Assembly (NCBI GenBank): GCA_016937575.1 | Contig: JAFHKN010000002.1 | Coordinates: 1,426,001-1,490,000 of the forward strand | From: Roseomonas aeriglobus | GTDB taxonomy: Bacteria > Pseudomonadota > Alphaproteobacteria > Sphingomonadales > Sphingomonadaceae | Direction of reading: 5' to 3' | Length of the DNA: 64,000 nt | Shown here: positions 21,430-36,951 of the stretch, piece by piece | Layout of the letters: every line of letters starts with the position of its first letter | Position numbering within the stretch: the stretch's first letter is position 1 | Notes under the pieces: generated by a model | Told to the model about the DNA's origin: nothing | What the model saw: the letters and a program-made list of their open reading frames with translations, nothing else | Databases searched by the model: none | Translations under genes and position numbers: made by a program

Positions 21430-22440
21430 TCAACCGCCGAGGATTCGGCGGTAGAGCGCGATATAGGCGTCCGCCATCCGCTCGACCGAAAAGCGATCGA
21501 TGACCGACTGGCGGATCGTCGCCCGATCGAGCCCGGCGGCGCATTCGATCGCGTCGCCGACGCCTTGCAGGTCGTCGACCAGAACACCGGTCACGCCGTC
21601 ATCGATCAGCTCCGGCATGGACCCGCGTCGGGTAGCGATGACGGGTGTGCCGCAGGCCATCGCCTCGATCACCGACAGACCGAATGGCTCGTCGAAGTTG
21701 ATGAGGTGGAGCAGGGCGCGTGCGGCGCCGAGCGCGCGCACCCGCGCCGCGCCGCCGACCGCCCCGTGATAGCGGACGCGGTCGCCATCGATACCGGGCG
21801 CAACCTCCCGCTCGTGATAGCCGCTGTCCTGAACGATGCCGTACATGTCGAGCCGGCGTCCACTGGCGCGCGCCGCCGCGATGGCTTCCTTCGGCCCCTT
21901 GTCGGGGTGAATGCGACCGAAGAACAGCAGATCCTCGCTGCCCACCGGATCGAAGGGAAAATCGTCGATCGGGATGCCGTGATGGATGGTTGCGGCATAG
22001 TGCAGCGATGGATGGCGATCGGCGTCGCTGATCGCGACGAAATGCACCCGGTCCTGAAACGGCTGATACATCGGCAGGATGCGGGCGGATGAGAAGCCGT
22101 GGATGGTCGTGACGACCGGCGTGTCGACGAACGGCGCAAAGGCGTGAGCGGGAAAATCGGCCTGGTTGTGGATGATGTCGAACCGGTCGGCCTGGCCGAA
22201 GACATGCGCGAGATGGCGATACTCCCAGACCTTGGCATCGATGCTGGGGTCTTCGGAATAGGGGGCGGGAACGATACCGTCGAGCGTGCCGGCGGTCTGG
22301 CTGTCGAGCGTGGCGAACAGCGTGACGTCGACGCCGCGCGCGACCAGCGCCTCGGTCAACAGGCTCGTGACGAGTTCCCACGGGCCATAATGGCGCGGCG
22401 GCGTGCGCCAGGCGATCGGGGCAAGCATCGCGATCTTCAT
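21430..22440 (-). CDS. Glycosyltransferase, GT4-like (GT-B fold)
   Basis: A 336-residue retaining glycosyltransferase of the GT-B fold. MKIAMLAPIAWRTPPRHYGPWELV is the typical glycine-containing N-terminal loop for this group. DIIHNQADF and VVTTIHGFSS follow. The C-terminal donor-binding domain carries the EX7E motif in DEPFGLSVIEAMACGTPVIAT (about residue 255), then GVTGVLVDD. The ATG at 22440 overlaps the stop of the GH13 gene (ATGA), so the two are cotranslated. The donor and acceptor are unknown; pairing with an alpha-glucosidase suggests alpha-glucoside metabolism. The last codons form half of a hairpin shared with the end of the convergent regulator gene. Confidence 0.88.
   Translation of the reverse strand: MKIAMLAPIAWRTPPRHYGPWELVTSLLTEALVARGVDVTLFATLDSQTAGTLDGIVPAPYSEDPSIDAKVWEYRHLAHVFGQADRFDIIHNQADFPAHAFAPFVDTPVVTTIHGFSSARILPMYQPFQDRVHFVAISDADRHPSLHYAATIHHGIPIDDFPFDPVGSEDLLFFGRIHPDKGPKEAIAAARASGRRLDMYGIVQDSGYHEREVAPGIDGDRVRYHGAVGGAARVRALGAARALLHLINFDEPFGLSVIEAMACGTPVIATRRGSMPELIDDGVTGVLVDDLQGVGDAIECAAGLDRATIRQSVIDRFSVERMADAYIALYRRILGG
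21433..21452. terminator. Candidate bidirectional terminator hairpin
   Basis: ACCGCCGA and TCGGCGGT form a perfect 8-bp stem with a GGAT loop in the junction of the convergent Crp/Fnr and glycosyltransferase genes. It overlaps the last codons of the latter and has no T-run, so the call is tentative. Confidence 0.4.
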
Positions 22441-24023
22441 GCGAGGATCAGTCCTTCGTTGGGCGCGAGGCGGCCCGGGTTGGCCGGGGTGTCGAGCGTC
22501 GAGAGCAGCACGTCCCCCGTCCAATCGACGGCCACCGGTCTGTCGGTCAGGTTCAGCAGGATGGTCCGATCCTCCCCGTCCGCCGAACGACGATAGGCGA
22601 GCACGCCCGCCGGCACATCGATCAGCACCATCGCGCCGGTCGTCAGCGCGGGCGTCGCGCGCCGGAGGGCAAGCAGCCGGCGGTAGAGCGACAGCATCGA
22701 CGTGGGATCGTCGGACTGCGCTGCCACGTTCCGTGTCGGCCAGTCCGGGTTGAGCGGCAACCACGGCTCGGTCGTGCTGAACCCCGCAAACGCGGCCGCG
22801 CTCCACGGCATCGGCGTGCGTGAGCGATCGCGGCCGATGTCGAGCTGTGGCTGGCGGAAGTGCTGGGGATCGCGGATGCGGTCTGGCGGGATGGGGACAT
22901 GGCCGATGCCGATCTCGTCCCCCTGATACAGCGTTGGCGTGCCGCGCAGCGTCAGCAACAGCATCGCGGCGACCCGGGCCTGCGCCTCGCCGATCCGCGC
23001 AGCGATCCGGGCGGCGTCGTGACTGTCGAAGACCCAATTGGGCCAGCCCCAGGAAGGCAGCGACGCTTCATAGGCGGCGATTGTCCGCCGCAGCACCCCG
23101 GCATCCCAGGGATTTTCGACGAGCTGGAAGTTGAAGGGCAGATGCACTTCGGGGCGCTCGGGGGTGCCGTACCAGCGGGCGTGCGCGGTATTGGGCAGGA
23201 AGATCTCGCCGATCAAAACGCGGGCGTCGCCCTTTTCGGCGCCGTAGCGGTCGGCCAGCGCGCGCATCTCCGAGGCGATCGCATGCGCCTCGGGCTGGTC
23301 GGTCGAATAGCGCTGGATCAGCGTGTCCCGCTGCGTCCGATCGGGCGTCCAATCGGGGTTGGGCGGGTTGTCGGGGAAGCCCTGCGCCTTCACGATGTGC
23401 CAAAGCACGTCGATGCGGAAGCCATCGACGCCGCGGTCGAACCAGAAGCGCAAGACGTCGAACATCGCCGCGCGCAACTCGGGATTGCGCCAGTTGAGGT
23501 CAGGTTGCTCCTTCAGAAAGGCATGCAGGTAATATTGTCCTGTCCCCGCGTCCCATTCCCACGACGATCCGCCGAAATCGCTGATCCAATTATTGGGTGG
23601 ACCACCATCGGGCGCGGGATCATGCCAGATGTACCAGTCGCGTTTGGGATTATCGCGCGACGATCGGCTTTCCCTGAACCAGGGATGCTGGTCCGAGCTG
23701 TGATTGGGCACGAAGTCGAGGATCAGCTTCAGCCCGCGTGCATGGACCTCAGCCAGCAGCCGGTCGAAGGTCGCGAGGTCGCCGAACAGCGGATCGATGC
23801 CGGTATAGTCCGCCACGTCATAGCCGAAGTCCGCCATCGGTGACGGGAAGATCGGCGACAGCCAGATGGCATCGACGCCCAGGGCGGCCACATAATCGAG
23901 CCGGTCGATGATCCCTGCCAGATCGCCCACGCCATCGCCAGTCGTGTCTTGGAAGGAGCGCGGGTAGATCTGATAGATGGTGCCGCGCTCCCACCAAGGG
24001 GGCGGCTGCGTCAGGGATGGCAT
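22437..24023 (-). CDS. Alpha-glucosidase, GH13 family
   Basis: A 528-residue glycoside hydrolase with a TIM-barrel catalytic domain and a short C-terminal beta domain. It starts MPSLTQPPPWWERGTIYQIYPRSF, the usual opening for oligo-1,6-/alpha-1,4-glucosidases. The active site is visible: FVPNHSSDQH near 104-113, the nucleophile Asp205 in GFRIDVL, the acid/base Glu273 in LIGEIFLP, and Asp336 in FDSHDAAR (family FxNHD, here with Ser for Asn). There is no signal peptide, so it acts in the cytoplasm on imported oligosaccharides. The ATG at 24023 was chosen for homology; the upstream extension lacks similarity. It is cotranscribed with the glycosyltransferase. Confidence 0.93.
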   Translation of the reverse strand: MPSLTQPPPWWERGTIYQIYPRSFQDTTGDGVGDLAGIIDRLDYVAALGVDAIWLSPIFPSPMADFGYDVADYTGIDPLFGDLATFDRLLAEVHARGLKLILDFVPNHSSDQHPWFRESRSSRDNPKRDWYIWHDPAPDGGPPNNWISDFGGSSWEWDAGTGQYYLHAFLKEQPDLNWRNPELRAAMFDVLRFWFDRGVDGFRIDVLWHIVKAQGFPDNPPNPDWTPDRTQRDTLIQRYSTDQPEAHAIASEMRALADRYGAEKGDARVLIGEIFLPNTAHARWYGTPERPEVHLPFNFQLVENPWDAGVLRRTIAAYEASLPSWGWPNWVFDSHDAARIAARIGEAQARVAAMLLLTLRGTPTLYQGDEIGIGHVPIPPDRIRDPQHFRQPQLDIGRDRSRTPMPWSAAAFAGFSTTEPWLPLNPDWPTRNVAAQSDDPTSMLSLYRRLLALRRATPALTTGAMVLIDVPAGVLAYRRSADGEDRTILLNLTDRPVAVDWTGDVLLSTLDTPANPGRLAPNEGLILA

Positions 24024-24087
24024 GGCGGTGATACCCCTGGCGACGCGCAGGGTTCCCACATGCTCTCCGCCGGCACGGGTTTTGAGG

Positions 24088-25440
24088 CTATGCCGCGGTG
24101 GCCGCGTAGAGCGCGATCGTGGCGGCCAGCACTTCCTGCATCGCAATGGCGCGCGCGTCCTGCGCCGATATGAGCAGGTCCTGCGCATCGAGCAGTCGCT
24201 GCAGATCGACGTCGCCCTCCAGATATTGCCGGCGCGCGAGCGACGTCGTGGTCCGAGCCTCCGCCTCGACGTCGGCCAGCAGCGCCTCGCGCTCGCGGGC
24301 GTGACGGATCGAGGACAATGCGTTCTCCACGCCGCGCAGCGCTTCGAGCACCGATTGCCGGTAGGTCTCCGCCGCCTCGCGTTGTTGCCCGAGGCTGAGG
24401 GCGAGATCGCCCTTCAGCCGCGATCGCGCAAAGATCGGCGCGAGCAGGTCATTGCCGATCCGCGCGATCGGGACGAGCGGGCCGACCGACGCCGTCGTGG
24501 CGACGAGGCTGGCCGACAGGTTGAGCGACGGGTAGAAAGCGCGTCGGGCCGCGTCCACGTCGCCACCGGCGGCGCGCAGCCGGGCCTCCGCTGCGCGAAC
24601 GTCTGGCCGCCGCTCGATAAGCACGGCGGGCGGGGGAGCGGTGAGCGCAGGTGCGATCAGGTCGTCCAGCACGCCCGTCTCGACCGAGAACCCCGGCGAT
24701 TCCGCACCCGTCAAAACCGCGAGCGACGTGCGGGTTTCCTGCAAAGCTTCCGACAGGCGCGTCGCCTCCGCACGCAGCTGCTTGAGGCGGATCGCCTGGA
24801 GCCCGACGTCGACCCGCGTCGCATCGCCCTCACGCTGACGGACGCGCATGATCCGGTCGAGCTCGGCCGCCTGGGCGATGCTCGTGTCGAGCAACGTCAT
24901 CCGACGTGCGAGCGTCGCGCGCTGGACATAGGCGAGTGCGATCTGCGCTTCGAGCGCGATGCCCGCCGCGACGCGATCCAGCGCGGCAGCGCGCAGCCGG
25001 CCGGCCGCGCCGCGGCGCAACGCGCGGTTGCGGCCGAACAGGTCGGGGTCGAAGCTTGCATCGATGCTGGCAAAGCTGCGATCGAAGGCGAAGAGCTCGC
25101 GCTGTCCGGGCAGGCGGGTGCCGCCGGGCTGGACGCTTGCCGTGACAACCGGCAGGGCGGTCGATCGCGCGCTCGTGAGCAGGGCAGCGGCCTGCTGAAC
25201 GCGCGCGTCGCTGGCGCGCAGCGTCGGGCTTTGTTGTCGCGCGGTGGCGATCAGCGCATCCAGTTCGGGTGCCGCCAGCAGCGCGCCGAGGCTCTGATCG
25301 GCTACGGTCGGCAGGTTCGCGGCGGTCGGATCGGTCCAGTCCTGGCTAAAGAGCGATGGCGGCACCGTCAGCCGGGCCGGCGGCGCGCAGCCGGACGCCA
25401 TGCCGATCGCGATCAGCGACACATAGGAACGCAGGGTCAT
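24088..25440 (-). CDS. TolC/NodT-family outer-membrane factor of the peptide export locus
   Basis: A 450-residue outer-membrane efflux protein. MTLRSYVSLIAIGMASGC gives a probable lipobox near residue 18 (SGC, a loose match). The body has the alternating helical repeats of the TolC fold (LIATARQQSPTLRASDARVQQAAALL; FYPSLNLSASL near the middle; DVDLQRLLDAQDLLISAQDARAIA near the end). It is divergent from the HlyD-type adaptor gene, with 134 bases between the starts, and close to the C39-type exporter. It is therefore the likely outer-membrane exit duct of that type I/bacteriocin export system. The 64 bases downstream to the GH13 gene contain nothing recognisable. Confidence 0.88.
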   Translation of the reverse strand: MTLRSYVSLIAIGMASGCAPPARLTVPPSLFSQDWTDPTAANLPTVADQSLGALLAAPELDALIATARQQSPTLRASDARVQQAAALLTSARSTALPVVTASVQPGGTRLPGQRELFAFDRSFASIDASFDPDLFGRNRALRRGAAGRLRAAALDRVAAGIALEAQIALAYVQRATLARRMTLLDTSIAQAAELDRIMRVRQREGDATRVDVGLQAIRLKQLRAEATRLSEALQETRTSLAVLTGAESPGFSVETGVLDDLIAPALTAPPPAVLIERRPDVRAAEARLRAAGGDVDAARRAFYPSLNLSASLVATTASVGPLVPIARIGNDLLAPIFARSRLKGDLALSLGQQREAAETYRQSVLEALRGVENALSSIRHAREREALLADVEAEARTTTSLARRQYLEGDVDLQRLLDAQDLLISAQDARAIAMQEVLAATIALYAATAA

Positions 25441-25574
25441 GGGCCGCCCATAGCCCGCCGGCCCCTTACGAATGGTTTCCGTCGCAGAAAGTCCAATCGT
25501 TCAGGATTAACCGGGCCTTAGACAATATTCCTTAGGCCGCTGGATGTCAGCTCAATCCGGAACGGCAGCCCTCT

Positions 25575-26804
25575 TTGTCAGACGCGCTTTTCAGACAGGA
25601 AGCGATCGATGCGCAGCGCCAGCGACTGGCCGGGGCGGTCGTCGCTGCAGTGCCGCCATCGGCGCGGGTATATACCGCCGTCATCCTGGCGGTGGCGATG
25701 GCGATCGTCTTGATGCTGGTCTTCGGCAGCTATGCGACCAATGCCCCCGTCCGTGGTGTCGTCGCATACGACACCGGCGTCGCGCGCGTATATCCGCGCA
25801 GCGCCGCCGAAGTGCGCCGCGTTCTGGTGCGCGAGGGTCAGGCGGTTGCCGCCGGACAACCCCTCGTCGAGCTGGGATTGGTACAGGGCGAGCGCGGGCT
25901 GGCCGAGCAGATCGCACAGATCGATCGCCAGATCGCCGAGATCGATCGTCAGCTGGGCATCGCCGAAGGCCTCGCGTCGAGCGAGACCGGCGCCCTCGAA
26001 ACCCAGCGTCGCGGGCTGATCGAGAGCGTGACGTCGCTGGAGCGGCAGCGCGGCATCGCCAGCGAGCAGGTCGGACTGGCCGAAAAGGCGGTGACGCGGA
26101 GCCAGAGGCTGGCGAAGGAGGGAGCCGGGACCCAGCGACAGGTCGATGCGGCGCGGGCCGAGCTGCTGATGCGCAAGAGCGAGGTCGAAAACCTGACGGA
26201 GCGGCTGATCACGACACGCGCGTCGATCGCCGATCTGGGCATCAAGCTGTCGCAGGGCGGGCTGACGTCGGGCAAGGCGGCATCGCAGCTGCGCAGCGAA
26301 CGCTCGGCGCTGATGACACAGCGTGCCGACCTCGTCCGCTCCGACCATATCGTTCTGACCGCGCCGGTTGCGGGGCGGGTCGCCGAACTGATCGCGGAGC
26401 CAGGGCGGCACGCGACCCCGGATGGGTCCCTGGTGACGGTGGTGCCCGACGGCGGCAAGCTGGAGACATGGTTCTATGCCCCGACCCAGGCGATCGGCTT
26501 CGCACGGCCGGGGCAGGCGGTGCGCCTGCGCTTCGATGCCTTTCCGTACCAGAAATACGGCTCCGGCCGCGGGGTCGTGACCGACGTGTCGCGGGTGGCG
26601 GTGGATCCGGCCGCGGTCGATCCGGCCCTAGGTATAAAGGAGGCGAGTTTTCGCGTGCGTGTCCGGATCGACACGATCGGCTCCGCGCGCGCTACCGCCG
26701 CCGGGGTGCGACCGGGAATGACGGTGTCGGGTGATCTGGTGCTGGAGCGCCGGCCGCTGTGGGCGCTGCTGTTCGCGCCGATCCGCGAAAGCCTGATTCG
26801 ATGA
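25575..26804 (+). CDS. HlyD-family adaptor of a bacteriocin exporter (CvaA-like)
   Basis: A 409-residue membrane-fusion protein that links the ABC exporter to the outer-membrane factor. It has a short cytoplasmic N-terminus, one membrane helix near residues 33-52 (VYTAVILAVAMAIVLMLVF), a lipoyl-like half domain (VRRVLVREGQAVAAGQPLVEL), a long coiled coil (about 100-240) and a closing lipoyl/beta-barrel part (VLTAPVAGRVAELIAEPGRHATPDGSLVTVVP). This layout fits the CvaA/MchE group rather than RND adaptors, which are lipoproteins. It starts at TTG 25575 because no in-frame ATG precedes the conserved part; the ribosome binding site is weak. It overlaps the exporter gene by 4 bases. Confidence 0.9.
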   Translation: MSDALFRQEAIDAQRQRLAGAVVAAVPPSARVYTAVILAVAMAIVLMLVFGSYATNAPVRGVVAYDTGVARVYPRSAAEVRRVLVREGQAVAAGQPLVELGLVQGERGLAEQIAQIDRQIAEIDRQLGIAEGLASSETGALETQRRGLIESVTSLERQRGIASEQVGLAEKAVTRSQRLAKEGAGTQRQVDAARAELLMRKSEVENLTERLITTRASIADLGIKLSQGGLTSGKAASQLRSERSALMTQRADLVRSDHIVLTAPVAGRVAELIAEPGRHATPDGSLVTVVPDGGKLETWFYAPTQAIGFARPGQAVRLRFDAFPYQKYGSGRGVVTDVSRVAVDPAAVDPALGIKEASFRVRVRIDTIGSARATAAGVRPGMTVSGDLVLERRPLWALLFAPIRESLIR

Positions 26805-28924
26805 GCCTCGACTGGATATCGTCGCGGCGGATTCAGCCGGTGTTGCAGGCAGAGGCCGCCGAATGCGGGCTTGCCGCGATTACGATGGTCGCCGAACATC
26901 ACGGCCACCGTGTCAACCTGGCGGGCTTGCGCCTGCGCTTCCCGACATCGATCAAGGGTGCGACGCTTGAACAGCTGATGGCGATCGCTGCCGAACTGGA
27001 GCTCGCGCCGCGGCCGGTGCGGCTAGAGCTCGAAGAACTGGCGGAGCTCCAACTCCCGGCGATCCTGCACTGGGACCTCAACCATTTCGTCGTGCTGGAA
27101 GCGGTGAAGCCCGGCAGATCGGCGACGATCCTCGACCCCGCGCTTGGCCGGCGAGTCCTGCCGCTGGGCGAGGTCAGCAAGCATTTCACCGGCGTCGCAC
27201 TCGAACTGGCTCCGACCGCGTCGTTCAAGCCGATCGAGGCGCGGCGCAGGACCCGGCTGAGCGACCTGTGGAGCCGGATGACCGATTTCCGCGGCGCCAT
27301 GGCGCAGGTCATTGCGCTGTCCGCGGTCATGCAGTTCACCGCGCTGCTCACGCCCTTCTACATTCAGATCGCGATCGACGAGGCGTTTCCGCAGGCCGAC
27401 AGCAACCTGCTGTTACTGCTGATGATCGGCTTCGGTGCGGTATATATCCTTGGCGCCGTGACCCAGGCGCTGCGCGAGTGGGTGATGCTTTCGCTCGGAC
27501 AGTCGCTGTCGTTCCATATGGGCGGCAACGTCGTGCGTCATCTGATCCGGCTGCCGCTCGCCTATTTCGAGCGTCGCCATATCGGCGACCTGATGTCGCG
27601 GATCGGATCGATTCAGCCGATCCAGCAACTGCTCGCGCACGGAATCGCCAGCGTAGTGATCGACGCGGCGCTCGTCGTGACGACCGTGATCGTGATGATC
27701 TTCATCAGCCCGACCCTGTCGGCGATCGTGATCGGATCGACCCTGCTCTACATCGCCTTGTCGCAGACGATGTATCCGGCGCTGCGGCGACGGTCCGAGG
27801 AGGAAATCCACGCCCGTGCGGGTGAGGAAAGCTATCTGATGGAGACGATCCGGGCGATCCGGTCCGTCAAGATCCACGGGCACGAGGCGCAGCGAGAGGG
27901 CGGGTGGCGCAACCGCTATGCCGACGTCATCCGGGCATCGTACAAGACCCGCCGCTTCGCGATCGGGCTCGATCTGGGCGAAGGGTTGCTGTTCAACCTG
28001 GCGCTGGTCGTCTGCATCTATATCGGCGGGCTGCAGGTGATAGCCGGCACGCTGACCGTCGGCACGTTGCTCGCCTTTCTGTCATATCGCTCGAGCTTCG
28101 CGGCGAGCGCGGTGTCGTTGGTCGACCGGTTCCAGGAATGGCGGCTGATCGGCCTGCACCTCGACCGATTGTCGGATATCGTCACCGAGACGAAGGAAGA
28201 CTTTCCCGTCGCCCCGCGCCGCGAGCTTCTGGCGGGGCCGGCGATGGCCGTCGACGGCCTGAGCTTCAGCTATGATCCGACATCGCGACCGGTGCTCGAC
28301 GGCATCGACCTCGACATCCCATCGGGCGCGTTCGTGGCGGTCGTGGGACCGAGCGGAGCGGGCAAGACGACGCTGATGCGTATCCTGCTCGGCCTGCTGA
28401 CGCCGGGCGCGGGAGCGATCACGATCGACGGCGTGCGACTGAACCCGGCGACGATGGCCGGCTGGCGCGCCCGGATCGGCGCGGTGATGCAGGACGATTG
28501 CCTGCTGACCGGCACGATCGAGGACAATATCGCCTTCTTCGATGCGAGCGCGAAGCCCGAGGACGTCGTGCGCGCGGCGATGCTGGCCGAAATTCACAAT
28601 GACATTGTCGCGATGCCGATGGGGTATCGCACGCTGATCGGCGACATGGGTGCCGCGCTCTCGGCAGGGCAGCGTCAGCGCGTGATGCTCGCCCGCGCGC
28701 TGTTCCGCGATCCGGACGTGCTGTTCCTGGACGAAGGGACGGCGAACCTCGATCCCGACACCGAAGATCGCATTGCCGACATGATCGCGGGGCTGCCGAT
28801 CACCCGCATCGTCATCGCGCATCGACCGGCCCTGATCGACCGGGCGGAGATCGTCATCCGCGTCGACGGGGGCCAGGCCATCGTCGAGCGTCGCACGATG
28901 CCGCGAGCGCTCGGGGTCGATTGA
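26801..28924 (+). CDS. C39-peptidase ABC exporter (double-glycine bacteriocin processing and secretion)
   Basis: A 707-residue peptidase-containing ABC transporter that cuts double-glycine leaders and exports the mature peptide. The N-terminal C39 domain has QAEAAECGLAAITMV with catalytic Cys22, HFVVLE with His95 and DP with Asp112, so all three catalytic residues are present. A six-helix membrane domain follows (about 160-430). The ATPase has Walker A GPSGAGKTT near 516, the signature LSAGQRQR near 620 and Walker B VLFLDEG near 640. The ATG overlaps the adaptor stop. Family members include CvaB and MchF. A matching double-glycine precursor gene lies just downstream on the other strand. Confidence 0.95.
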   Translation: MSLDWISSRRIQPVLQAEAAECGLAAITMVAEHHGHRVNLAGLRLRFPTSIKGATLEQLMAIAAELELAPRPVRLELEELAELQLPAILHWDLNHFVVLEAVKPGRSATILDPALGRRVLPLGEVSKHFTGVALELAPTASFKPIEARRRTRLSDLWSRMTDFRGAMAQVIALSAVMQFTALLTPFYIQIAIDEAFPQADSNLLLLLMIGFGAVYILGAVTQALREWVMLSLGQSLSFHMGGNVVRHLIRLPLAYFERRHIGDLMSRIGSIQPIQQLLAHGIASVVIDAALVVTTVIVMIFISPTLSAIVIGSTLLYIALSQTMYPALRRRSEEEIHARAGEESYLMETIRAIRSVKIHGHEAQREGGWRNRYADVIRASYKTRRFAIGLDLGEGLLFNLALVVCIYIGGLQVIAGTLTVGTLLAFLSYRSSFAASAVSLVDRFQEWRLIGLHLDRLSDIVTETKEDFPVAPRRELLAGPAMAVDGLSFSYDPTSRPVLDGIDLDIPSGAFVAVVGPSGAGKTTLMRILLGLLTPGAGAITIDGVRLNPATMAGWRARIGAVMQDDCLLTGTIEDNIAFFDASAKPEDVVRAAMLAEIHNDIVAMPMGYRTLIGDMGAALSAGQRQRVMLARALFRDPDVLFLDEGTANLDPDTEDRIADMIAGLPITRIVIAHRPALIDRAEIVIRVDGGQAIVERRTMPRALGVD

Positions 28925-28937
28925 GCCGAAACGAAGC

Positions 28938-28962
28938 GGGGCCGCCCTTGCCGGACGGCCCC
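28938..28962. terminator. Hairpin between the exporter and the peptide gene
   Basis: GGGGCCG and CGGCCCC pair over 7 bp around an 11-base loop, which can add two more pairs after one mismatch. It lies 13 bases after the exporter stop and 10 bases after the stop of the convergent precursor gene, so it could end both transcripts. There is no strong T-run. Confidence 0.6.
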
Positions 28963-28972
28963 GATCGCAATC

Positions 28973-29137
28973 TTAGCGGCAGCCCTTCTTGGGCTTCGGG
29001 TCGCACTTCGGGGCCGGCTCGCACTTGGGCGCCGGCGCGCACTTGACCGGCTGCGGCTTGCAAGCGAACAGCCACGACAGAAGGCCGAAGGTGCCGCCCG
29101 AAACAGCGTTCAGCTCGGAGGTACGAAGATCGCGCAT
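28973..29137 (-). CDS. Double-glycine-leader, cysteine-rich microcin-like precursor peptide
   Basis: A 54-residue precursor. Its leader MRDLRTSELNAVSGG (residues 1-15) closely resembles the colicin V leader type (hydrophobics at set positions, ELxxVSGG before the cut). The core is 39 residues: a hydrophobic start (TFGLLSWLFA) and then five cysteines at core positions 11, 18, 24, 30 and 38. Between these are repeated Pro/Lys units CKPQPVK, CAPAPK, CEPAPK and CDPKPK. I count seven Lys and one Arg against one Glu and one Asp, so the core is strongly cationic. A GGGAG ribosome binding site precedes the ATG by about eight bases. It lies tail to tail with the C39 exporter that should process it. 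I know no named family for the core. An antimicrobial role is inferred; metal binding or signalling is possible. The 129 bases upstream hold its promoter and no supported gene. Confidence 0.85.
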   Translation of the reverse strand: MRDLRTSELNAVSGGTFGLLSWLFACKPQPVKCAPAPKCEPAPKCDPKPKKGCR

Positions 29138-29266
29138 GATGTCTGCTCCCGTTTTACGCGACCGATGTCGTCCGGCCGCTGTGGGCAGAGTGTACGGTCG
29201 GACGCGCGGCGGCGTCTCGAGTAAAAACGGACCGCAGAGTCCCGTTCCGAAACGATTTGTTAACCA

Positions 29267-30724
29267 TCATCCGCTCGATGCGACTTCTCTCAGGCCGCCG
29301 CCGAGCGCGGTGTAAAGCGACACGTCATTCTGTAGCTGGGCGCTGCGCAACTGCAGCAGCTGCTGTTCCGCACTGAACAGGTTTCGCTCCGCGTCGAGCA
29401 CTTCCAGATAGATCGACAGGCCGTTGTCGTAGCGCAGTCGGGCGACCCGGACGAGCCGGCGCTGCGCTTCGATCGCGCGTCCCTGCGCGTCGATTTGCTC
29501 GATATAGCGGCGTCGGGCGACCAATGCGTCGGCCACTTCGCGAAAAGCCGTCTGCGTGGCCTTCTGATAGGCCGCCACGAGTTCGTCCGCCTGAGCCTGG
29601 GTCAGGGCGATGCCGGCGCTGCGCTTGCCCCACGTCAGGATCGGCTGGGTCGCATTGGCACCCACGCGGTACTGCACCGAGTCGCCCGATATCAGACCGC
29701 CCAGCGCCGGCGAGATGAAGCCGAGCAGTCCGGTCAGCGAGATCGTCGGCAGGAACGATGCGCGGGCGACACCGATGTTGGCATTGGCCGCACGCAGCCG
29801 CTGTTCGGCCTGGAGCACGTCGGGACGATTGGCGAGCAGCGCGGAGGGCAGGCCGGGTTCGATCGCCGCGAACTGCCCGGCATCGGACAGCGGGCGGGGT
29901 GCCGGAAGCGGCCCGGGGATCGGACCGCCGATCAGCACCGTCAGCAGGTTTTCCGACTGTGCCGTCGTCCGCCGAAGCTCGGCCAGCTGCGTTTCCGCCT
30001 GGGTGACGAGCAGCCGCGCCTGATCGAAATCGACCGTGGAGGTCACCCCCGCGTCCATTCGCTTGCGCGCGATGGCGACTGCCTCGCGCCGTCCGGTCAG
30101 CGTGCGTTCCGCCAGCGCGATCTGTTCCTCGCCCGCGCGGATCTGAAGATAGGCCGCGGCCACCTGGGCGACGAGCGAGATGCGAAAGGCGCGCTCGGCC
30201 TCGACCGTCGCCAGATATTCGCGCCGTGCGGCTTCCGCGGTGTTGCGAACGCGGCCCCAGAAGTCGAGCTCGTAGCTCGGGACCTGAACGCCCAGCGAAT
30301 ATTGGGTGAAGGTGAAGCTTGTCGGGGACTCTGCCGCGCCACCCGTACCATTGCCCTGGTCGGTTGACGTCGTGGTCGTCGGAAAGCCCAGCGCATTGAG
30401 CGGCTGGCGCGTGCGGGTCACCCCGGCGACGCCCTCCACCTGCGGCAGGCGATCGGCGTCGGTGATGCGGTATTGGGCACGTGCCTGTGCCACGCGCGCG
30501 ACCGATTGGGCCAGGTCGCGGTTGTTGGTCAGCGCCGCCGCGATATACGCCTGCAACCGCGGATCGCCGAAGAATTCGCGCCAACCCACCTCGGTCGCCG
30601 CCCGGCTCCCGGCCGTCGCTTCCGGGAACGTCGGCGCGACGGGAGCGGTGGGCTGGACATATTTCGGCGTGAAATTGCAGCCGGCGAGCGTGCTCAATCC
30701 TGCGAGCAGGATGACCTTACGCAT
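29267..30724 (-). CDS. Outer-membrane efflux lipoprotein, NodT family (second RND operon)
   Basis: A 485-residue outer-membrane channel. The N-terminus MRKVILLAGLSTLAGC has a lipobox near residue 16, followed by NFTPKYVQPTAPVAPTFP, typical of OprM/NodT proteins. The two efflux domains show LTNNRDLAQSVARVAQARAQYRI and ASFLPTISLTGLLGF. It overlaps the RND pump gene by 8 bases, which makes it the third gene of a adaptor-pump-channel operon. It is distinct in sequence from the two other outer-membrane factors in the window. Its stop lies 129 bases from the microcin-like gene on the same strand. Confidence 0.93.
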   Translation of the reverse strand: MRKVILLAGLSTLAGCNFTPKYVQPTAPVAPTFPEATAGSRAATEVGWREFFGDPRLQAYIAAALTNNRDLAQSVARVAQARAQYRITDADRLPQVEGVAGVTRTRQPLNALGFPTTTTSTDQGNGTGGAAESPTSFTFTQYSLGVQVPSYELDFWGRVRNTAEAARREYLATVEAERAFRISLVAQVAAAYLQIRAGEEQIALAERTLTGRREAVAIARKRMDAGVTSTVDFDQARLLVTQAETQLAELRRTTAQSENLLTVLIGGPIPGPLPAPRPLSDAGQFAAIEPGLPSALLANRPDVLQAEQRLRAANANIGVARASFLPTISLTGLLGFISPALGGLISGDSVQYRVGANATQPILTWGKRSAGIALTQAQADELVAAYQKATQTAFREVADALVARRRYIEQIDAQGRAIEAQRRLVRVARLRYDNGLSIYLEVLDAERNLFSAEQQLLQLRSAQLQNDVSLYTALGGGLREVASSG

Positions 30725-33700
30725 GAGCGGGGGTTCCTTCCGAACGGTCGTCGTCGCGGGGAGACGGCGGCGGCATATCCTGCTGCTCCGCCGCCACCGA
30801 TGTGGGGGCCTTGCGCGACAGCCAGCGGCGCGCGGCGAAGTAGAAGACGGGGGTGAAGAAGATGCCGAGCGCGGTGGCGGCGATCATGCCACCCATCACG
30901 CCGGTGCCGACGGCATGGCGACTCGCCGCGCCCGCACCGCTCGCGATGACCAGCGGGACCATGCCCAGGATGAAGGCGAGCGACGTCATCAGGATCGGCC
31001 GCAGGCGCTGGCGCGATGCCTCCAGCGTCGCCCCTCGCACCTTCGCTATGCCTTCGCCGTCCTGATGCTCTTCATCCTCGATCGCGAATTCCACGATCAG
31101 GATCGCGTTCTTCGCCGCCAGGCCGATGATCGTGATGAGGCCGATGTTGAAATAGACGTCGGCGGACAGCCCCCTCAGCATCGTAAACAACACGGCACCG
31201 AGCACCCCGAAGGGCACGACGAGCAGCACGGACAGCGGGACCGCCCAACTGTTGTAGAGCGCTGCAAGCAACAGGAAGACGACGATCAGCGACAGCCCGA
31301 GCAACAGCCCGATCTGGCCGCCGGCCTGTTTCTCTTCATAGGCGGTACCGGTCCATTCATAGCCGAAGCCGGGCTTCAGCACCTGATCGGCGATGCGCTC
31401 CATTTCCTTCAGCGCCGCACCCGACGACTGCCCCGGCGCCGCCTGGCCCGAAATCGTGACCGACGGATAACCGTTGTAGCGCTGGAGCTGGGTCGCGCCC
31501 GATTCCCACGCCACCTTCGTAAAGGCGGAGAAGGGGACCATCTGGCCCTGAGCGTTGCGCACGCGCAGCGCCAGCACGTCCTCGGCTCTCATTCGGCTCG
31601 GCGCATCGGCCTGCAGGTAGACGCGCTGGACCGTGCCCTGATTCGAGAAGTCGTTGGCGTAGGCCGAACCGAAGCTGATCGCGAGCGTCGCGTTGACGTC
31701 GGCGATCTGCAAGCCCAGCGCGCGCGCCTGGACGCGGTCGATATCGACGTAGAGCTGCGGCGACGGGGCCTGACCCTCCGGACGGATGCCGGTGAGGATC
31801 TTGCTCTGCGACGCCGCGCCCAGGATCGCGCCCATCGCCTGTTGCAGTCCGGCCGGATCGTTGCCGACGCGGTCCTCGATCTTCATCGAGAAGCCCGTCG
31901 CATTGCCCAGTGCCTGGATGGCGGGCGGGTTCAGCGCGAAGATCGTCGCTCCCGAAATTCCCGCGGTCGCGCCGAAGGTCTGACCGATGATCGCGTTGAC
32001 CGAATTTTCGGCGCCGTGCCGATCCTCATAGGGCTTCAGCATGACGAACGAGAGAGCGGCCGACTGGCCCTGACCGAAGAAGTTGAAGCCCAGGACCGAA
32101 ATGATCCGGTCGAACTGCGGCTGCTTCATCAGAAAGGCCTCGGTCTGCCGGACCGCGGCTTGCGTGCGTTCGGTCGTGGCACCGACCGGCGCGTCGTAGC
32201 TGATGACGAAATAGCCCTGATCCTCCTCCGGCAGGAAGCCGCCGGGCAGGCGCAGGAACAGCAGCGCCGTGACGCCCAGCACCGCCAGGAACACGGCAAG
32301 CCAGCGCAACGGCCGCGACAACATGCCGCCAACGCCGCGGATATAGCGGTCGGTCGCGTTCTGGAAACGATCGTTGAACCAGTTGAAGAAGCGCTGCGGA
32401 TAGCCGCGCCAGCCTGCGCGAGGCTCGGGCCGTTCGTCGACATGGTGTTGATGCGGTTTCAACAACGTGGCGCACAGCGCTGGTGTCAGCGTGAGGGCCA
32501 AAACCGCGGAAAAGAAGATCGAAACGGCAAGCGTCACCGAAAACTGACGATAGATGCCGCCGGTCGACCCCGGGAAGAACGCCATCGGGATGAACACGGC
32601 AATCAGCACCAATGTAATGCCGATGATCGCGCCACGGATCTGCCCCATCGCCTTGATGGTCGCCTGAGCGGGCGGCAGACCTTCCTCCGCCATGATGCGT
32701 TCGACATTCTCGACCACGACGATCGCGTCGTCGACCAGGATGCCGATCGCCACGACCATCGCAAACAGCGACAGTGTGTTGATCGAGAAGCCGAAGAGCC
32801 ACAGGCCGAGACACCCGCCCGCCAGCGCGATGGGTACGACGATCGCCGGGATGACGGTCGCGCGCCAGCTCTGCAGGAACAGGAACATCACCAGGAAGAC
32901 GAGCAGCATCGCTTCGACGAGCGTGCGGATGACGTTATCGATCGACGTCGAGATGAACGGCGTCGTGTCGTAGGACACGTCCCAGGTGATGTCTTCCGGG
33001 AAGGTGCGCTGCAGCTCGCGCATCCGCTCGCTGACCGCATCGCGCGTGGCGATCGCATTGGCCCCGGCGGCCAGCTGGACCGCGATGCCGGCGACCTTGT
33101 CGCCGTTCAGCGTGGTCGAGAACTGGTAATTGTCCGCGCCGATCTCGACCCGCGCGACGTCGCCCAGCCGCACGGTCGAACCGTCGGTGTTGGCCTTGAT
33201 GATGATCTGCCGGAACTGTTCGGGGGTCTGGAACCGGTTTTGCGTCACGATCTTGGCGTTGAAATCCGTCCCCGGAGTCGTCGGCTGGTCGCCGATGCCG
33301 CCGCCCGCAGTCTGGCTGTTCTGTTCCTGCACCGCGAGCAAGACGTCCGACGGCGACAGATTGAAACCGGCAAGCTTGTCCGGATCGAGCCAGATCCGCA
33401 TCGCCTTCTCGGAACTGAACAACAGTGTATTGCCCACACCCGGCACACGCCGGATCTCGTTGACCACCTTCGTCGAGGCGAAGTCGCCGAGCTCGAGTGC
33501 CGGGGTCTTCCCCGATTTCGACCGCAGCGTCAGCACTTCGAGGAAGCCGGACGAATTATCGGTGATCTGGATACCCAGACGCCGCACGTCTTCGGGCAGA
33601 CGCGGCTCGGCGCGGTTCAGACGATCCTGCACCTGGGTGCGGGCGACGTCGATGTTGGTACCCGACTGGAACGTCAGGACAATCTCGCCGGTGCCGTTCG

Positions 33701-33950
33701 CGCGGCTGGTCGACGACATGTACAGGAACTTGTCGACGCCGTTCAACTCACGCTCGATGACCGATGTGACGTTCTTGTCCATCGTGTCGGCGTCGGCGCC
33801 GTTGTAATTATAGGTCAGCGTCAGCGACGGCGGCGCGACCGAGGGATATTGCTCCACCGGCAGGTTCAGCAGCGCCATCGTGCCGAACAGCGCGACGAAT
33901 GCGGCGATCACCCAGGCGAAGACCGGGCGGTGAACGAAGAAACTGTCCAT
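30717..33950 (-). CDS. RND multidrug efflux transporter, HAE1 family (second copy)
   Basis: A 1077-residue inner-membrane pump. It starts MDSFFVHRPVFAWVIAAFVALFG, then NLPVEQYPSVAPPSL. The twin-aspartate proton-relay motif is in GILVDDAIVVVENVE near residue 405, with FIPMAFFPGSTGGIYRQFSVT after it, and GLAAKNAILIVEFA lies in the second membrane half. A His-containing insert (HQHHVDERPEPRAGW) sits in the cytoplasmic loop between the two membrane bundles. The charged, Pro-rich C-terminal tail is not conserved. It is closer to AcrB/MexB in architecture than to metal RND pumps. The TetR gene upstream suggests drug- or ligand-responsive control. Confidence 0.96.
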   Translation of the reverse strand: MDSFFVHRPVFAWVIAAFVALFGTMALLNLPVEQYPSVAPPSLTLTYNYNGADADTMDKNVTSVIERELNGVDKFLYMSSTSRANGTGEIVLTFQSGTNIDVARTQVQDRLNRAEPRLPEDVRRLGIQITDNSSGFLEVLTLRSKSGKTPALELGDFASTKVVNEIRRVPGVGNTLLFSSEKAMRIWLDPDKLAGFNLSPSDVLLAVQEQNSQTAGGGIGDQPTTPGTDFNAKIVTQNRFQTPEQFRQIIIKANTDGSTVRLGDVARVEIGADNYQFSTTLNGDKVAGIAVQLAAGANAIATRDAVSERMRELQRTFPEDITWDVSYDTTPFISTSIDNVIRTLVEAMLLVFLVMFLFLQSWRATVIPAIVVPIALAGGCLGLWLFGFSINTLSLFAMVVAIGILVDDAIVVVENVERIMAEEGLPPAQATIKAMGQIRGAIIGITLVLIAVFIPMAFFPGSTGGIYRQFSVTLAVSIFFSAVLALTLTPALCATLLKPHQHHVDERPEPRAGWRGYPQRFFNWFNDRFQNATDRYIRGVGGMLSRPLRWLAVFLAVLGVTALLFLRLPGGFLPEEDQGYFVISYDAPVGATTERTQAAVRQTEAFLMKQPQFDRIISVLGFNFFGQGQSAALSFVMLKPYEDRHGAENSVNAIIGQTFGATAGISGATIFALNPPAIQALGNATGFSMKIEDRVGNDPAGLQQAMGAILGAASQSKILTGIRPEGQAPSPQLYVDIDRVQARALGLQIADVNATLAISFGSAYANDFSNQGTVQRVYLQADAPSRMRAEDVLALRVRNAQGQMVPFSAFTKVAWESGATQLQRYNGYPSVTISGQAAPGQSSGAALKEMERIADQVLKPGFGYEWTGTAYEEKQAGGQIGLLLGLSLIVVFLLLAALYNSWAVPLSVLLVVPFGVLGAVLFTMLRGLSADVYFNIGLITIIGLAAKNAILIVEFAIEDEEHQDGEGIAKVRGATLEASRQRLRPILMTSLAFILGMVPLVIASGAGAASRHAVGTGVMGGMIAATALGIFFTPVFYFAARRWLSRKAPTSVAAEQQDMPPPSPRDDDRSEGTPAHA

Positions 33951-33956
33951 GGTCGC

Positions 33957-35165
33957 TTACTTCTTTGCCGGCTGCTGCTGGGGCTGGCCGCCTTGGGCCG
34001 CAGGGGCGGGATCGCCCTTGACCTGCACCCGCCCGCCGGGCGGCATCATCGCCAGCTTCTGCCAGCCATCGGTGATGACCCGATCGCCCGCCTTCAGCCC
34101 GGACTTCACGAGCCAGCTATTGCCGACCTGACCGGCAAGTTGCACCGGACGCGGCGCGGTCGAGCCGTGGGCGTTGACCACTGTCACATTCGCCCCGCGC
34201 TCACCGAACTGGATCGCGCGCGCCGGGATCAGGATGCCGTTGGGCGCCGTGCCGATGGCGATGCGCCCGCGCACGAACTGGCCGGGGACGAGCAGGCGTT
34301 CGCCGTTGGGAAAGACCGCGCGCAGCACCTGGGTACCCGTCTGCGGATCGACTGACGGCGCGGCAAAGTCGAGCGTGCCGGTTGGTCCGTAATCCTTGCC
34401 GTTGGCGAGGACCAGGCGCACCTCGACCTGCCGTAGCGGCTTCAGGTTGGTCTGACCGGCGCGTTCGGTCGCCAGCATGTCGAGCAGCGCCGTATTCGAT
34501 TCGGTAAACACGGCGTAGATCGGCGAGGGTTGTTCGACCGTCGTCAGCAGCGTGCCCTGCGCAGCGCTGACCAAAGCGCCTTCGGTCACCTGTGCGCGAC
34601 CGACCCGGCCGGAGATCGGCGCGCGGACGGTCGTGTAGTTGAGCTGGATCTGCGCGCGGGTCAGCGCCGCGCGGGCCTGCGCGACATCGGCCGATGCCGT
34701 GCGCAGCGTCGCCTGCGCCGCGTCATACTCCTGCCCGCTGACTGCGCGTTCGTTGACCAGGGGGGCGTAGCGACGAACGACCGATTGCGCGTTGGACTGC
34801 GCCGCCTGCGCCCGGGCGAGCGTCGCGCGCGCCTGTTCGACCGCGGCGCGCAGGTCGCGCGGGTCGATGGTGAACAGCGGCTGGCCGGCGCGCACGTCCG
34901 ACCCTTCGGTGAAGAGACGACGCTCGATGATCCCATCGGCGCGCGCGCGAACCTCGGCGGTGCGCACGGCTTCGATCCGGCCCGGCAATTCGACGATATT
35001 CGGGACGGTCTCGGTCTTGACGGTGATCGCCTCGACGAGCGTCGGCGGCGGTGCGCCGCCCGGGGCACCGCCGGGGGCGCCCCCGGGAGCGCCGCCCCCG
35101 CCGCCACAGGCAGCGAGAGCGAGGAAGGCGAGGGTCGAAATCGAGCTACGGAAGCGGTTCGGCAC
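33957..35165 (-). CDS. RND efflux periplasmic adaptor lipoprotein
   Basis: A 402-residue adaptor with a GTG start preceded by GGAGA. The signal MPNRFRSSISTLAFLALAAC has a lipobox near residue 20. Immediately after it come a run of glycines and three APGG units ending in PPP, an unusual flexible tether before the folded part. The folded part shows VRARADGIIERRLFTEGSDV, FTIDPRDLRAAVEQARATL, NYTTVRAPISGRVGRAQVTEGALV and PGQFVRGRI, all adaptor hallmarks. It is the first gene of the second RND operon and is followed 6 bases later by the pump. The TetR gene lies 61 bases upstream on the same strand. Confidence 0.93.
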   Translation of the reverse strand: MPNRFRSSISTLAFLALAACGGGGGAPGGAPGGAPGGAPPPTLVEAITVKTETVPNIVELPGRIEAVRTAEVRARADGIIERRLFTEGSDVRAGQPLFTIDPRDLRAAVEQARATLARAQAAQSNAQSVVRRYAPLVNERAVSGQEYDAAQATLRTASADVAQARAALTRAQIQLNYTTVRAPISGRVGRAQVTEGALVSAAQGTLLTTVEQPSPIYAVFTESNTALLDMLATERAGQTNLKPLRQVEVRLVLANGKDYGPTGTLDFAAPSVDPQTGTQVLRAVFPNGERLLVPGQFVRGRIAIGTAPNGILIPARAIQFGERGANVTVVNAHGSTAPRPVQLAGQVGNSWLVKSGLKAGDRVITDGWQKLAMMPPGGRVQVKGDPAPAAQGGQPQQQPAKK

Positions 35166-35226
35166 GAGAGGTCTCCGGGGGTGGCGGCCGGGAAGGGGGT
35201 AAGCGGTACGAAACGGACAGGACGGG

Positions 35227-35796
35227 TCAGGGCGACGCGCGAGTGAGGGCGATCAGGGCATCGTGCAGATCAGACGATACGTCGGCCACGCCCTCGACCG
35301 ATCGCATCGTCGACAACCAGATGCCATCGGCCGCGAGGCGCACGATCGCGCAGGGGATATTGTCGTCGGTGGCGGCATGGCGTTCGATCTGCGCAGCGAC
35401 CCAGGTCGCCCAGCGATCCTGCAGCGCCGGATCCGCGATCATCGACAGGCACAAAGCGTGCGACGTCACCGAATCCCGAATGCATCGTTTATCAAAGACG
35501 CCGTTCACATAAGCTCGCGTGAAGCGGCCATGTGGTTCCGGGTCTGCCGCCATCTCCTCATCGATCGATGCCGCCGCAAACGCGATCATCGTCTCCAGCA
35601 CGCCGTCGATCAGCGCGTCCTTGGTCGGGAAATGGTGAAACAGACCGCCCTTGGTCACGCCCGCGGCGCTAGCCACGCCATCGATCGTCAGGCGCGCGAG
35701 CCCCTTGTCGGCCAGCACCACCATCGCCGCGTCGATGATCGCGGCACGGACCCCTTCGGGATCCTTCTTCCGTTCATAGGCGTTCGGGGGACTCAA
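35227..35796 (-). CDS. TetR-family transcriptional regulator
   Basis: A regulator with an N-terminal TetR helix-turn-helix (RAAIIDAAMVVLADKGLARLTIDGVASAAGVTKGGLFHHFPTKDALIDGVLE) and a ligand-binding C-terminal domain of normal size. I place the start at TTG (complement of 35794-35796, MSPPNAYERKKDPEG), giving 189 residues, because the in-frame ATG further upstream (35859) would put a palindromic operator inside the coding region. That start is uncertain and no strong ribosome binding site is seen. Its position just upstream of the efflux operon, on the same strand, suggests it represses itself and the pump. The ligand is unknown. Confidence 0.85.
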   Translation of the reverse strand: MSPPNAYERKKDPEGVRAAIIDAAMVVLADKGLARLTIDGVASAAGVTKGGLFHHFPTKDALIDGVLETMIAFAAASIDEEMAADPEPHGRFTRAYVNGVFDKRCIRDSVTSHALCLSMIADPALQDRWATWVAAQIERHAATDDNIPCAIVRLAADGIWLSTMRSVEGVADVSSDLHDALIALTRASP

Positions 35797-35821
35797 CGAG
35801 CGACACCGGATCTTTGTTAAA

Positions 35822-35835
35822 ACCGACCGTCCGGT
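35822..35835. promoter_or_regulatory. Candidate TetR operator
   Basis: ACCGACCGTCCGGT is an imperfect palindrome located 26 bases upstream of the proposed regulator start, beside a run of A/T bases. TetR proteins of efflux operons bind such sites. The call rests on symmetry and position. Confidence 0.45.
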
Positions 35836-35907
35836 ATCTTTCGCTTTTACCTGCGTCAAGCGGTCTTCGCAACTGCAGCAAAACGCAGGATTTTTCGCCG
35901 GTGCGGC

Positions 35908-36951
35908 TCAGCGAATCGCCAGAAACGCGCCTGCGGCAGCGAATCCCAGCATCGCCAGCGTGACGACTCCGATCAGGATCAACGGCCGCGATCCCATTTT
36001 CATCAGTTGCGGCAGCGGGGACCGGATGGCCGTCGCCGCGACGGCACACGCAAGCATTGCGCCGGCAAGCGCCTCTGCACCATGTACGACCGGCGCCGGG
36101 ATGATGCCTGTCGAATTGATCCCCGCGACGACGAAGAAGCCCACGACAAACCACGGCACGCCTTGGCTTCCCGTCGCGCGTTCGCTGCGGGGAAGGAACA
36201 GTGCCAGCACGGCGAGGACCGGGGCGAGCAGGGCGACCCGGGTGAGCTTGACGATCGTCGCGATCCGCCCAGCCTCCGGGGAATAGGAATAGCCCGCGCC
36301 CAGCGCCTGGGCGACGTCGTGAATCGCGCCCCCCAGCAGGAAGCCCGCGCGGCCGTCCGAAAAGCCCGCGGCGTGGGCGAGCATCGGATAGACGACCATT
36401 GCGGTCGCGCTCATGGCCGAAATACCGATAAGAACGAGGGTCAACTGCGCCTGGCTGATCCGTCGCGTGCTGAGCGTCGTCGCCACCGCCAGCGCTGCCG
36501 ATGCCCCGCAGATCGCCACGGCACCGCCGACCAGCATGCCGAACCATTGATCATACCCGAACCGCTTCGCCAGCAGCACGGCCAGCGTTATCGTGCCGGC
36601 GACGACCACCACGATCGCCAGCAGCGCGGGCAGGCCCAGATCGGCGATCTGCCCCAGCGTCACCCGCGCCCCGACGAGGACGATGCCCCACCGCAGCAGG
36701 TCCCGAGAGGCGAAGCCCAGACCGGGGTGCAGCCGCTTGTCCGCAGACAGGAAATTGAGCGCCAGGCCGATAAGCAGCGCCATCAGCGTCAGCGGGGCGC
36801 CGTACCGGTCGGAGAGGAATCCCGCGGCGAGCGTCGCGGCGACGACGAGGGCCAGTCCGGGCAGATGTTCGCGCCAACCGACACGTGGCCCCTCGACGAT
36901 GTCGCCGAACAGATCGGCGGCCATGGGGTAGGTTCGGCTAGTGTCGCTCAC
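35908..36951 (-). CDS. YeiH-family putative sulfate exporter/permease
   Basis: A 347-residue integral membrane protein with about ten hydrophobic helices. Motifs typical of the YeiH (UPF0324, Cons_hypoth698) family are visible: LLRWGIVLVGARVTLGQI, VGGAVAICGASAALAVA near the middle, and GGAIHDVAQALGAGYS. Members are annotated as putative sulfate exporters, without strong biochemical proof. The GTG at 36951 is used; ATG 36924 (MAADLFGDIV) is an alternative that shortens it by nine residues. It lies between the TetR gene and the dctD gene on the same strand and has no clear partner. Confidence 0.88.
   Translation of the reverse strand: MSDTSRTYPMAADLFGDIVEGPRVGWREHLPGLALVVAATLAAGFLSDRYGAPLTLMALLIGLALNFLSADKRLHPGLGFASRDLLRWGIVLVGARVTLGQIADLGLPALLAIVVVVAGTITLAVLLAKRFGYDQWFGMLVGGAVAICGASAALAVATTLSTRRISQAQLTLVLIGISAMSATAMVVYPMLAHAAGFSDGRAGFLLGGAIHDVAQALGAGYSYSPEAGRIATIVKLTRVALLAPVLAVLALFLPRSERATGSQGVPWFVVGFFVVAGINSTGIIPAPVVHGAEALAGAMLACAVAATAIRSPLPQLMKMGSRPLILIGVVTLAMLGFAAAGAFLAIR

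Follow-up and report, generated by a model that had tools for sequence, protein, structure and literature searches.

The window, by which we mean the whole 64,000-nucleotide stretch of DNA analysed here, carries at 28973-29137 a short minus-strand frame that raises three questions: whether it is a gene, where its product goes, and what that product does there. On rereading the sequence we recovered the 54-codon frame as the initial annotation had claimed it, together with the good ribosome binding site noted ahead of it, and the evidence set out below leads us to conclude that the gene is genuine, that its product very probably leaves the cell through the exporter encoded next to it, and that its role outside lies, on present indications, somewhere between antagonism of neighbouring cells and a part in the cell surface or matrix.

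The precursor gene and its export block

Conservation around the frame follows the pattern of a translated gene. In an alignment of three Sphingomonas species (A3), GGGAGC at the ribosome binding site is common to all three, and the stem of the terminator-like hairpin, which lies 3' of the peptide's stop codon, is present in the other two species as well. Comparing synonymous with non-synonymous change, a check proposed with the first description, comes out in favour of the gene: over three pairwise comparisons of the three species, with few sites in each, synonymous sites evolve faster (dS 0.36-0.47 versus dN 0.12-0.22), third codon positions hold most of the changes, and the leader alone has a dN of 0.03-0.06. 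The pattern of leader plus short ORF, which was composed only once the leader had been seen, matches once in the window and in none of 100 dinucleotide shuffles; across the whole genome the leader DNA pattern gives 10 matches versus one for a reversed-pattern control, and two of the 10 start short GG-type ORFs, namely the window gene and one at a second locus. Open frames are abundant in GC-rich DNA, with 101 ORFs of at least 40 aa across 22000-36000, yet the profile homologues from two classes, the excess of dS over dN, the conserved ribosome binding site and hairpin, and the recurrent linkage to exporters leave a chance ORF without expression next to no credibility. We found no sigma-70-type promoter in 28850-29350. 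Upstream of the peptide gene, GGTTAACAAA at 29256-29265 is kept in three species, and TTAAC elements also occur ahead of the first of the peptides at the second locus; these elements could be the site of a shared regulator.

Counting residues confirms both the cationic 39-residue core and the cysteine spacing CX6CX5CX5CX7C with its CAPAPK, CEPAPK and CDPKPK units, as first described. The core runs from a hydrophobic TFGLLSWLF segment into a Cys/Pro/Lys tail built of C-x-P-x-P-K units, with a computed pI of ~9.4 and a charge of ~+5, and its calculated monoisotopic mass is 4239.18 Da when reduced and ~4235.15 Da with two disulfides; the hydrophobic stretch, at ~9-11 residues, is by itself too short to span a membrane.

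The link to a neighbouring C39 exporter holds at close range, with 48 bases between exporter and peptide gene, 129 between the peptide gene and the RND channel, and 134 between the NodT-type channel and the HlyD adaptor (Table 1). Apart from this exporter, nothing in the genome matches PF03412. The exporter's catalytic residues, C36, H109 and D126 as numbered in the listed frame, were assigned by eye against the Cys/His/Asp named for CvaB in a published account (PMC9746304), and the true start of the protein may lie further in than that frame. TIGR03796 (NHLP-type RiPP export) is its best-scoring model, yet at 466.4 bits it stays under the cut-off of 853.3. The block is fully syntenic in two other Sphingomonas (G269 and G132), at 78-95% protein identity. 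We set aside co-transcription of the peptide gene with the upstream RND operon: among the loci scanned, RND permease genes flank the block only in the window and its two close relatives, and in the window a terminator-like site at 29242-29229 intervenes, in a stretch that is not conserved in the other species.

Table 1. Positions of the peptide gene, its export block and related features; positions without a locus prefix are those of the window.
Feature	Position	Strand	Remarks
Precursor peptide gene	28973..29137	minus	54 aa + stop; MRDLRTSELNAVSGG/TFGLLSWLFACKPQPVKCAPAPKCEPAPKCDPKPKKGCR
Double-glycine leader MRDLRTSELNAVSGG, 15 codons	29093..29137	minus	kept across family
Predicted mature core, 39 residues	28976..29092	minus	cleavage site inferred
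Ribosome binding site GGGAG	29146..29150	minus	ATG 8 nt downstream
Terminator-like hairpin, 11 pairs	28937..28963	minus	separates peptide and exporter genes; z -3.5
C39 peptidase ABC exporter (PCAT)	26759..28924	plus	PF03412 E 4.4e-31; convergent with peptide gene
HlyD-family periplasmic adaptor	25575..26804	plus	PF13437 E 8.6e-12; TIGR01843 E 5e-31, under its cut-off
NodT/TolC-type outer-membrane channel	24088..25440	minus	PF02321 E 1.1e-29, over cut-off; TIGR01845 205.9 bits versus cut-off 210.05
RND efflux operon and TetR gene	29267-35859		other side of peptide gene from exporter
VYGAGG-leader peptides with GSK or GSKNK cores	L076:11298-11489, L077:10047-10238, L078:11515-11709		near close exporter relatives
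Two more GG/GA-leader Cys/Pro peptides	L043:9865-10101, 10257-10448		own genome C2, near 2776256
2OG-Fe(II) oxygenase	L076:12611-13354, L077:11358-12101, L078:11810-12520, L080:12417-13178		beside near-clade modules

Relatives of the peptide and of its exporter

A single-sequence search returned nine proteins besides the query, eight at E<=5.3e-12 and one weak (E 0.016), while a profile search (A4, 18 rows) gave 83 proteins at E<=1e-3, the window's own included. Named records in this set come from Sphingomonas, Novosphingobium, Sphingobium, Sphaerotilus, Zoogloea, Nitrogeniibacter and Paracoccus, among which we take Sphaerotilus, Zoogloea and Nitrogeniibacter to be Betaproteobacteria. Common to the family are the leader, a TF[GC]LL[GS]GL[LF] segment and a cationic Cys/Pro tail. 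Counted over 80 cores (P0066, P0072 and P0074 left out as fragments) from a set whose collection by profile makes its conserved positions partly a matter of construction, L-12, V-4, G-2 and G-1 occur in 80/80, S-3 in 78/80 and E-8 in 75/80, which bears out the double-glycine leader; within the core, T+1 is found in 60/80, F+2 in 58/80 and L+4 in 68/80. A cysteine stands among the last three residues of 73 of the 80 cores, and 79 have a net charge of at least +2. The odd cysteine count, to which the initial annotation had attached possible meaning, does not stand as a trait of the family, the count being even in 44 cores and odd in 36, and because parity is mixed in this way we rejected a fixed disulfide pattern. 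Neighbouring cysteines are mostly separated by 5-7 residues, five in 33 cases and six or seven in 57 and 58; an arrangement of thiols along one face of a polyproline-II chain, with five residues between cysteines, was rejected on the greater frequency of six and seven. One relative (L112:1456-1659; ...KHPAPPVKHPAPPRPPKHH), adjoining a C39 ABC exporter relative, has His-Pro repeats in place of Cys-Pro.

The claim that this precursor was previously unannotated is partly right: its homologues are already in databases, at NCBI as 'hypothetical protein' (P0002, P0004, P0011) or, for P0062, P0065 and P0069 at NCBI and P0071 at JGI, as 'bacteriocin' or 'class IIb bacteriocin, lactobin A/cerein 7B family'. 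No Pfam model scores above its cut-off for the window peptide (P0001), and none of the NCBIfam bacteriocin models, TIGR03949 and TIGR01847 included, matches it at E<=1; TIGR03949 matches five of 18 family members at that threshold (best E 1.7e-5) and TIGR01847 four of 18. No title on the Cys/Pro family appeared among the matches listed for open-licence papers. The family is widespread but little described; its core is new, and secreted C39 cargo is an already known type.

Homologues beside C39 exporters, the search for which had likewise been put forward as a check, were found. Relatives found from sequence only adjoin C39 ABC and/or HlyD relatives in G269 and G132 (on the contigs of L037 and L038), in G570, in L039 (whose contig ends within the ABC gene), in L041 (Cognatazoarcus halotolerans) and in L042 (Sphaerotilus hippei). 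L040 (Chlorobiaceae), one of six loci that a single search returned, was discarded as a chance match inside a 242-aa ORF. The family of L041 has matches at E<=1e-4 in 6/199 genomes, and five of the six adjoin HlyD, including all four with Cys-containing tails, one of which is in L041's own genome; L123 is a 34-aa ORF adjoining an HlyD fragment. L122:1501-1704, a betaproteobacterial GG peptide made up almost wholly of a Gly/Leu zipper, has no HlyD in 1.5 kb of adjoining sequence. Two of nine genomes in the genus of G570 match, both adjoining an ABC relative.

Within the window's genus the profile matches 9/295 genomes at E<=1e-3. Seven of the nine have Cys/Pro cores, G012 matches by its leader only, and G259 is a doubtful case, a 37-aa ORF where the match continues past a stop codon into antisense sequence of an ABC fragment. 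Of the 295 genomes, 12 contain a near exporter (E<=1e-249, 55-100% identity), and eight of the nine profile-matching genomes, all but G259, fall among these 12 (Fisher p 3.4e-12), a test that is partly circular because some profile rows (A4, A5) were first noticed beside exporters. Genus matches above the 1e-3 line were left out, namely that at the second locus of G000 (E 0.0014) and four others (0.003-0.007), as was a looser search that reached 100/295 genomes at E<=0.1, three being strong. A class-wide profile search matched 1/385 genomes, the own one only, and a family-wide search with A1 matched 2/298; the peptide is therefore rare and patchy. Weak matches in the own genome are L003-L005, and the 1.5 kb flanks of 18 more distant genus exporters (L058-L075) contain no Cys/Pro peptide.

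What the near exporters are paired with varies. All 12 near-clade modules have a nearby short GG- or GA-type ORF, with a Cys/Pro core in seven (G000, G269, G132, G009, G017, G123, G008) and another core in five: GSK/GSKNK repeats after VYGAGG in G149, G104 and G082 (the last ~1.2 kb away), a Gly/His-rich core in G012, and an NGFGNG type after VSGTG, ~0.85 kb past the channel gene, in G233, the cargo of G149, G104, G082 and G233 having been chosen by visual inspection of ORF lists, with no control for chance. A tree built from 34 exporters places the 13 near rows together in a single group (100/100), and across the tree the Cys/Pro cargo label (11 rows, His type included) is clustered, with 1/500 shuffles as low, and needs five changes. 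Cargo types therefore switch or jump, and on the same count we rejected the exporter and Cys/Pro cargo as a single co-inherited pair.

At the second locus, 1.3 Mb from the exporter locus in the same genome, two further peptides end in Ser-Tyr-repeat and NNGFGNG tails. One of them has relatives (seven proteins), and it weakly resembles the peptide of G233 (25/62 positions, single-comparison E 8e-4). Both are likely extra cargo, and they may share the window's exporter because there is no second C39 gene in the genome. We raise tentatively, as an idea that is more doubtful than not, that a single clade of type I exporters in Sphingomonas could export many kinds of low-complexity peptide that replace one another freely (Cys-Pro, Gly-Ser-Lys, Gly/His and NGFGNG cores after similar leaders), some encoded far off, whose products would be cationic, thiol- or imidazole-bearing surface material that binds metal or cross-links, not bacteriocins.

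Immunity genes and known secretion systems

The leader and its homologues, the C39 ABC exporter, HlyD adaptor and channel in one block, the Cys/His/Asp residues and the synteny favour reading the peptide as type I secretion cargo, which we consider very probable. Very probably the C39 domain of the adjacent exporter would bind the MRxLxxxExxxVSGG leader and cut after Gly15, whereupon the exporter, HlyD adaptor and NodT-type channel would carry the 39-residue peptide out of the cell. Once there, its short hydrophobic N-terminal segment might take it to membranes, and the Cys/Pro/Lys tail might form a long cationic arm, extended in shape and able to bind anionic surfaces, metal or other thiols. 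The likeliest outcome would be surface-acting antagonism of neighbouring cells, similar to that of class II microcins or Cdz, without a dedicated linked immunity gene.

It is on immunity that the label microcin, given in the initial annotation, lacks support: the block leaves no room for an immunity gene, and none is conserved next to it. The three large genes either side of the peptide gene all exceed 400 aa, and with gaps of 48, 129 and 134 bp an immunity gene cannot fit inside the block. A search within 3 kb at 15 loci, in which greedy ORF choice can hide small genes, found no TM ORF of 50-216 aa at 11 of them, among these the window; the window has two ORFs of this size within 3 kb, neither with TM and neither inside the block. 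TM ORFs overlap the peptide gene itself in L078 (opposite strand) and in L080 and L084 (same strand, other frame), and L082 has two at the block edge or outside. When ORFs were clustered over the 15 loci, exporter, adaptor, channel and peptide (with shadow frames) were common to most groups, and a conserved fifth gene was absent from most. Two further ORF families occur in only three groups, one a 2OG-Fe(II) oxygenase and the other kilobases outside the blocks, and the modules of these loci have no conserved neighbour that handles metal or acts as a receptor or regulator.

The 2OG-Fe(II) oxygenase makes modification of the peptide possible beside the modules that carry it, and in L076 and L077 it directly follows a 327-358 aa ORF without a Pfam match. 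As a general modifier we rejected it: it accompanies four of 12 near-clade modules, none of the Cys/Pro type, and the window has no similar ORF. The window's own genome has five PF13640 (2OG-Fe(II) oxygenase) matches, two of which (C2:1424395-1424709 and 1491581-1491826) flank the window just beyond its ends, ~37 kb or less from the peptide gene, probably by coincidence.

Microcins are described as having five components, immunity among them, although some may lack a specific immunity protein, and the immunity proteins of class II members (51-216 aa) are encoded near the microcin gene and often have TM helices (PMC9746304); export of MccV is described in another account (PMC10231218). The locus resembles the class II microcins (MccV/colicin V) in its 15-residue double-glycine leader, short cationic core, C39 ABC exporter with Cys/His/Asp, membrane-fusion protein and TolC-type channel, and differs in that no immunity gene is linked to the peptide in the block or within 3 kb and that the channel is encoded in the block itself. 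To our knowledge, its Cys/Pro-repeat core is unlike class II microcin sequences.

The Cdz peptides of Caulobacter (CdzC/CdzD) are delimited by a length of 60-151 residues, a leader whose last two residues are G[G/A/S], genes for type I secretion no more than 10 kb away and one or two glycine zippers (GxxxG) (PMC5380434). Like them, the window peptide has a GG-type leader, type I secretion genes at that distance, a hydrophobic segment with a charged tail and a sporadic distribution; unlike them, it has 54 aa and Cys/Pro repeats, its core (TFGLLSWLFACKP...) shows no GxxxG zipper by eye, and no CdzI-like three-TM immunity gene was seen near it. Relatives in L082 and L083 do carry glycine zippers (LGGLVGGV...), and the family may for this reason grade into Cdz-like peptides. 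The likeness to TIGR03949 (lactobin A/cerein 7B) lies in the leader, in the five of 18 members that match and in three relatives that bear the name, set against the missing match to P0001 at E<=1; the matches appear to rest on the leader and glycine-rich segment, not on the Cys/Pro tail.

Antagonism and its alternatives

Antagonism of neighbouring cells is favoured by the four relatives that NCBI or JGI labels 'bacteriocin' and by the combination of a membrane-seeking segment with a cationic tail. Counting against it are the lack of an immunity candidate in the block or conserved beside it, the lack of a bacteriocin-model match for P0001 and a hydrophobic stretch of only ~9-11 residues, and we would put it at a little under an even chance on what the sequences tell us. 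The same secretion route could instead deliver a surface or matrix component, in adhesion or biofilm, whose cationic Cys/Pro tail would attach to sphingan-type polysaccharide or form disulfide cross-links between molecules. Such a role would make an immunity gene unnecessary, and none was found in the block or conserved beside it; it also accords with variable cysteine parity and with unrelated GSK and GSKNK repeat cores after similar leaders near near-clade exporters, as for structural cargo. There is a precedent in the EbfG GG-motif proteins of Synechococcus, which two papers describe as secreted by a C39 transporter and needed for biofilm, EbfG1-3 forming amyloid structures (PMC4997328, PMC9981879). 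The likeness to EbfG1-4, drawn from their description, is one of small GG-motif proteins with a non-killing role that leave through a C39-domain transporter, although Synechococcus belongs to a different phylum from the window's host. The family-recurrent hydrophobic TFxLLGGL segment looks membrane-seeking, however, and the patchy spread (near exporter in 12/295) and core diversification would also suit a competition factor, so that we regard the surface or matrix role as possible without favouring it and place microcin- or Cdz-like antagonism slightly ahead.

That the product is a secreted metal-binding peptide, with Cys/His ligands on a proline-stiffened chain capturing a soft metal outside the cell, seems to us unlikely. 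Replacement of Cys by His hints at metal: five members with 0-1 tail cysteines bear 1-5 histidines (L112, P0064, P0070, P0071, P0076), the more cysteines a tail has the fewer histidines it tends to have over 81 related, not independent, sequences (Spearman -0.36, p 0.001), and His is the most enriched substitution at tail cysteines, at 2.9x background. Yet sequences and pairs are non-independent and repeat alignments unreliable, His enrichment across all core columns is 1.8x and lies under that of Gly, Trp and Val, cysteine spacing is variable, and a conserved metal-handling neighbour is missing. Some peptides with a GG leader that leave the cell through C39 transporters act as pheromones, which lends some plausibility to an extracellular signal, but the core diversifies and a receptor or regulator is not conserved beside the module, and we consider signalling very improbable.

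With antagonism thus our leading if tentative reading of this secreted peptide, the locus adds a double-glycine peptide family, reaching through sphingomonads and Zoogloea/Azoarcus relatives, that none of the Pfam or NCBIfam models tested covers as a whole and for which there is now a searchable consensus. Because the family travels with a C39 exporter and without a visible immunity gene, it makes testable the question of what share of Gram-negative C39 cargoes are weapons and what share are something else.
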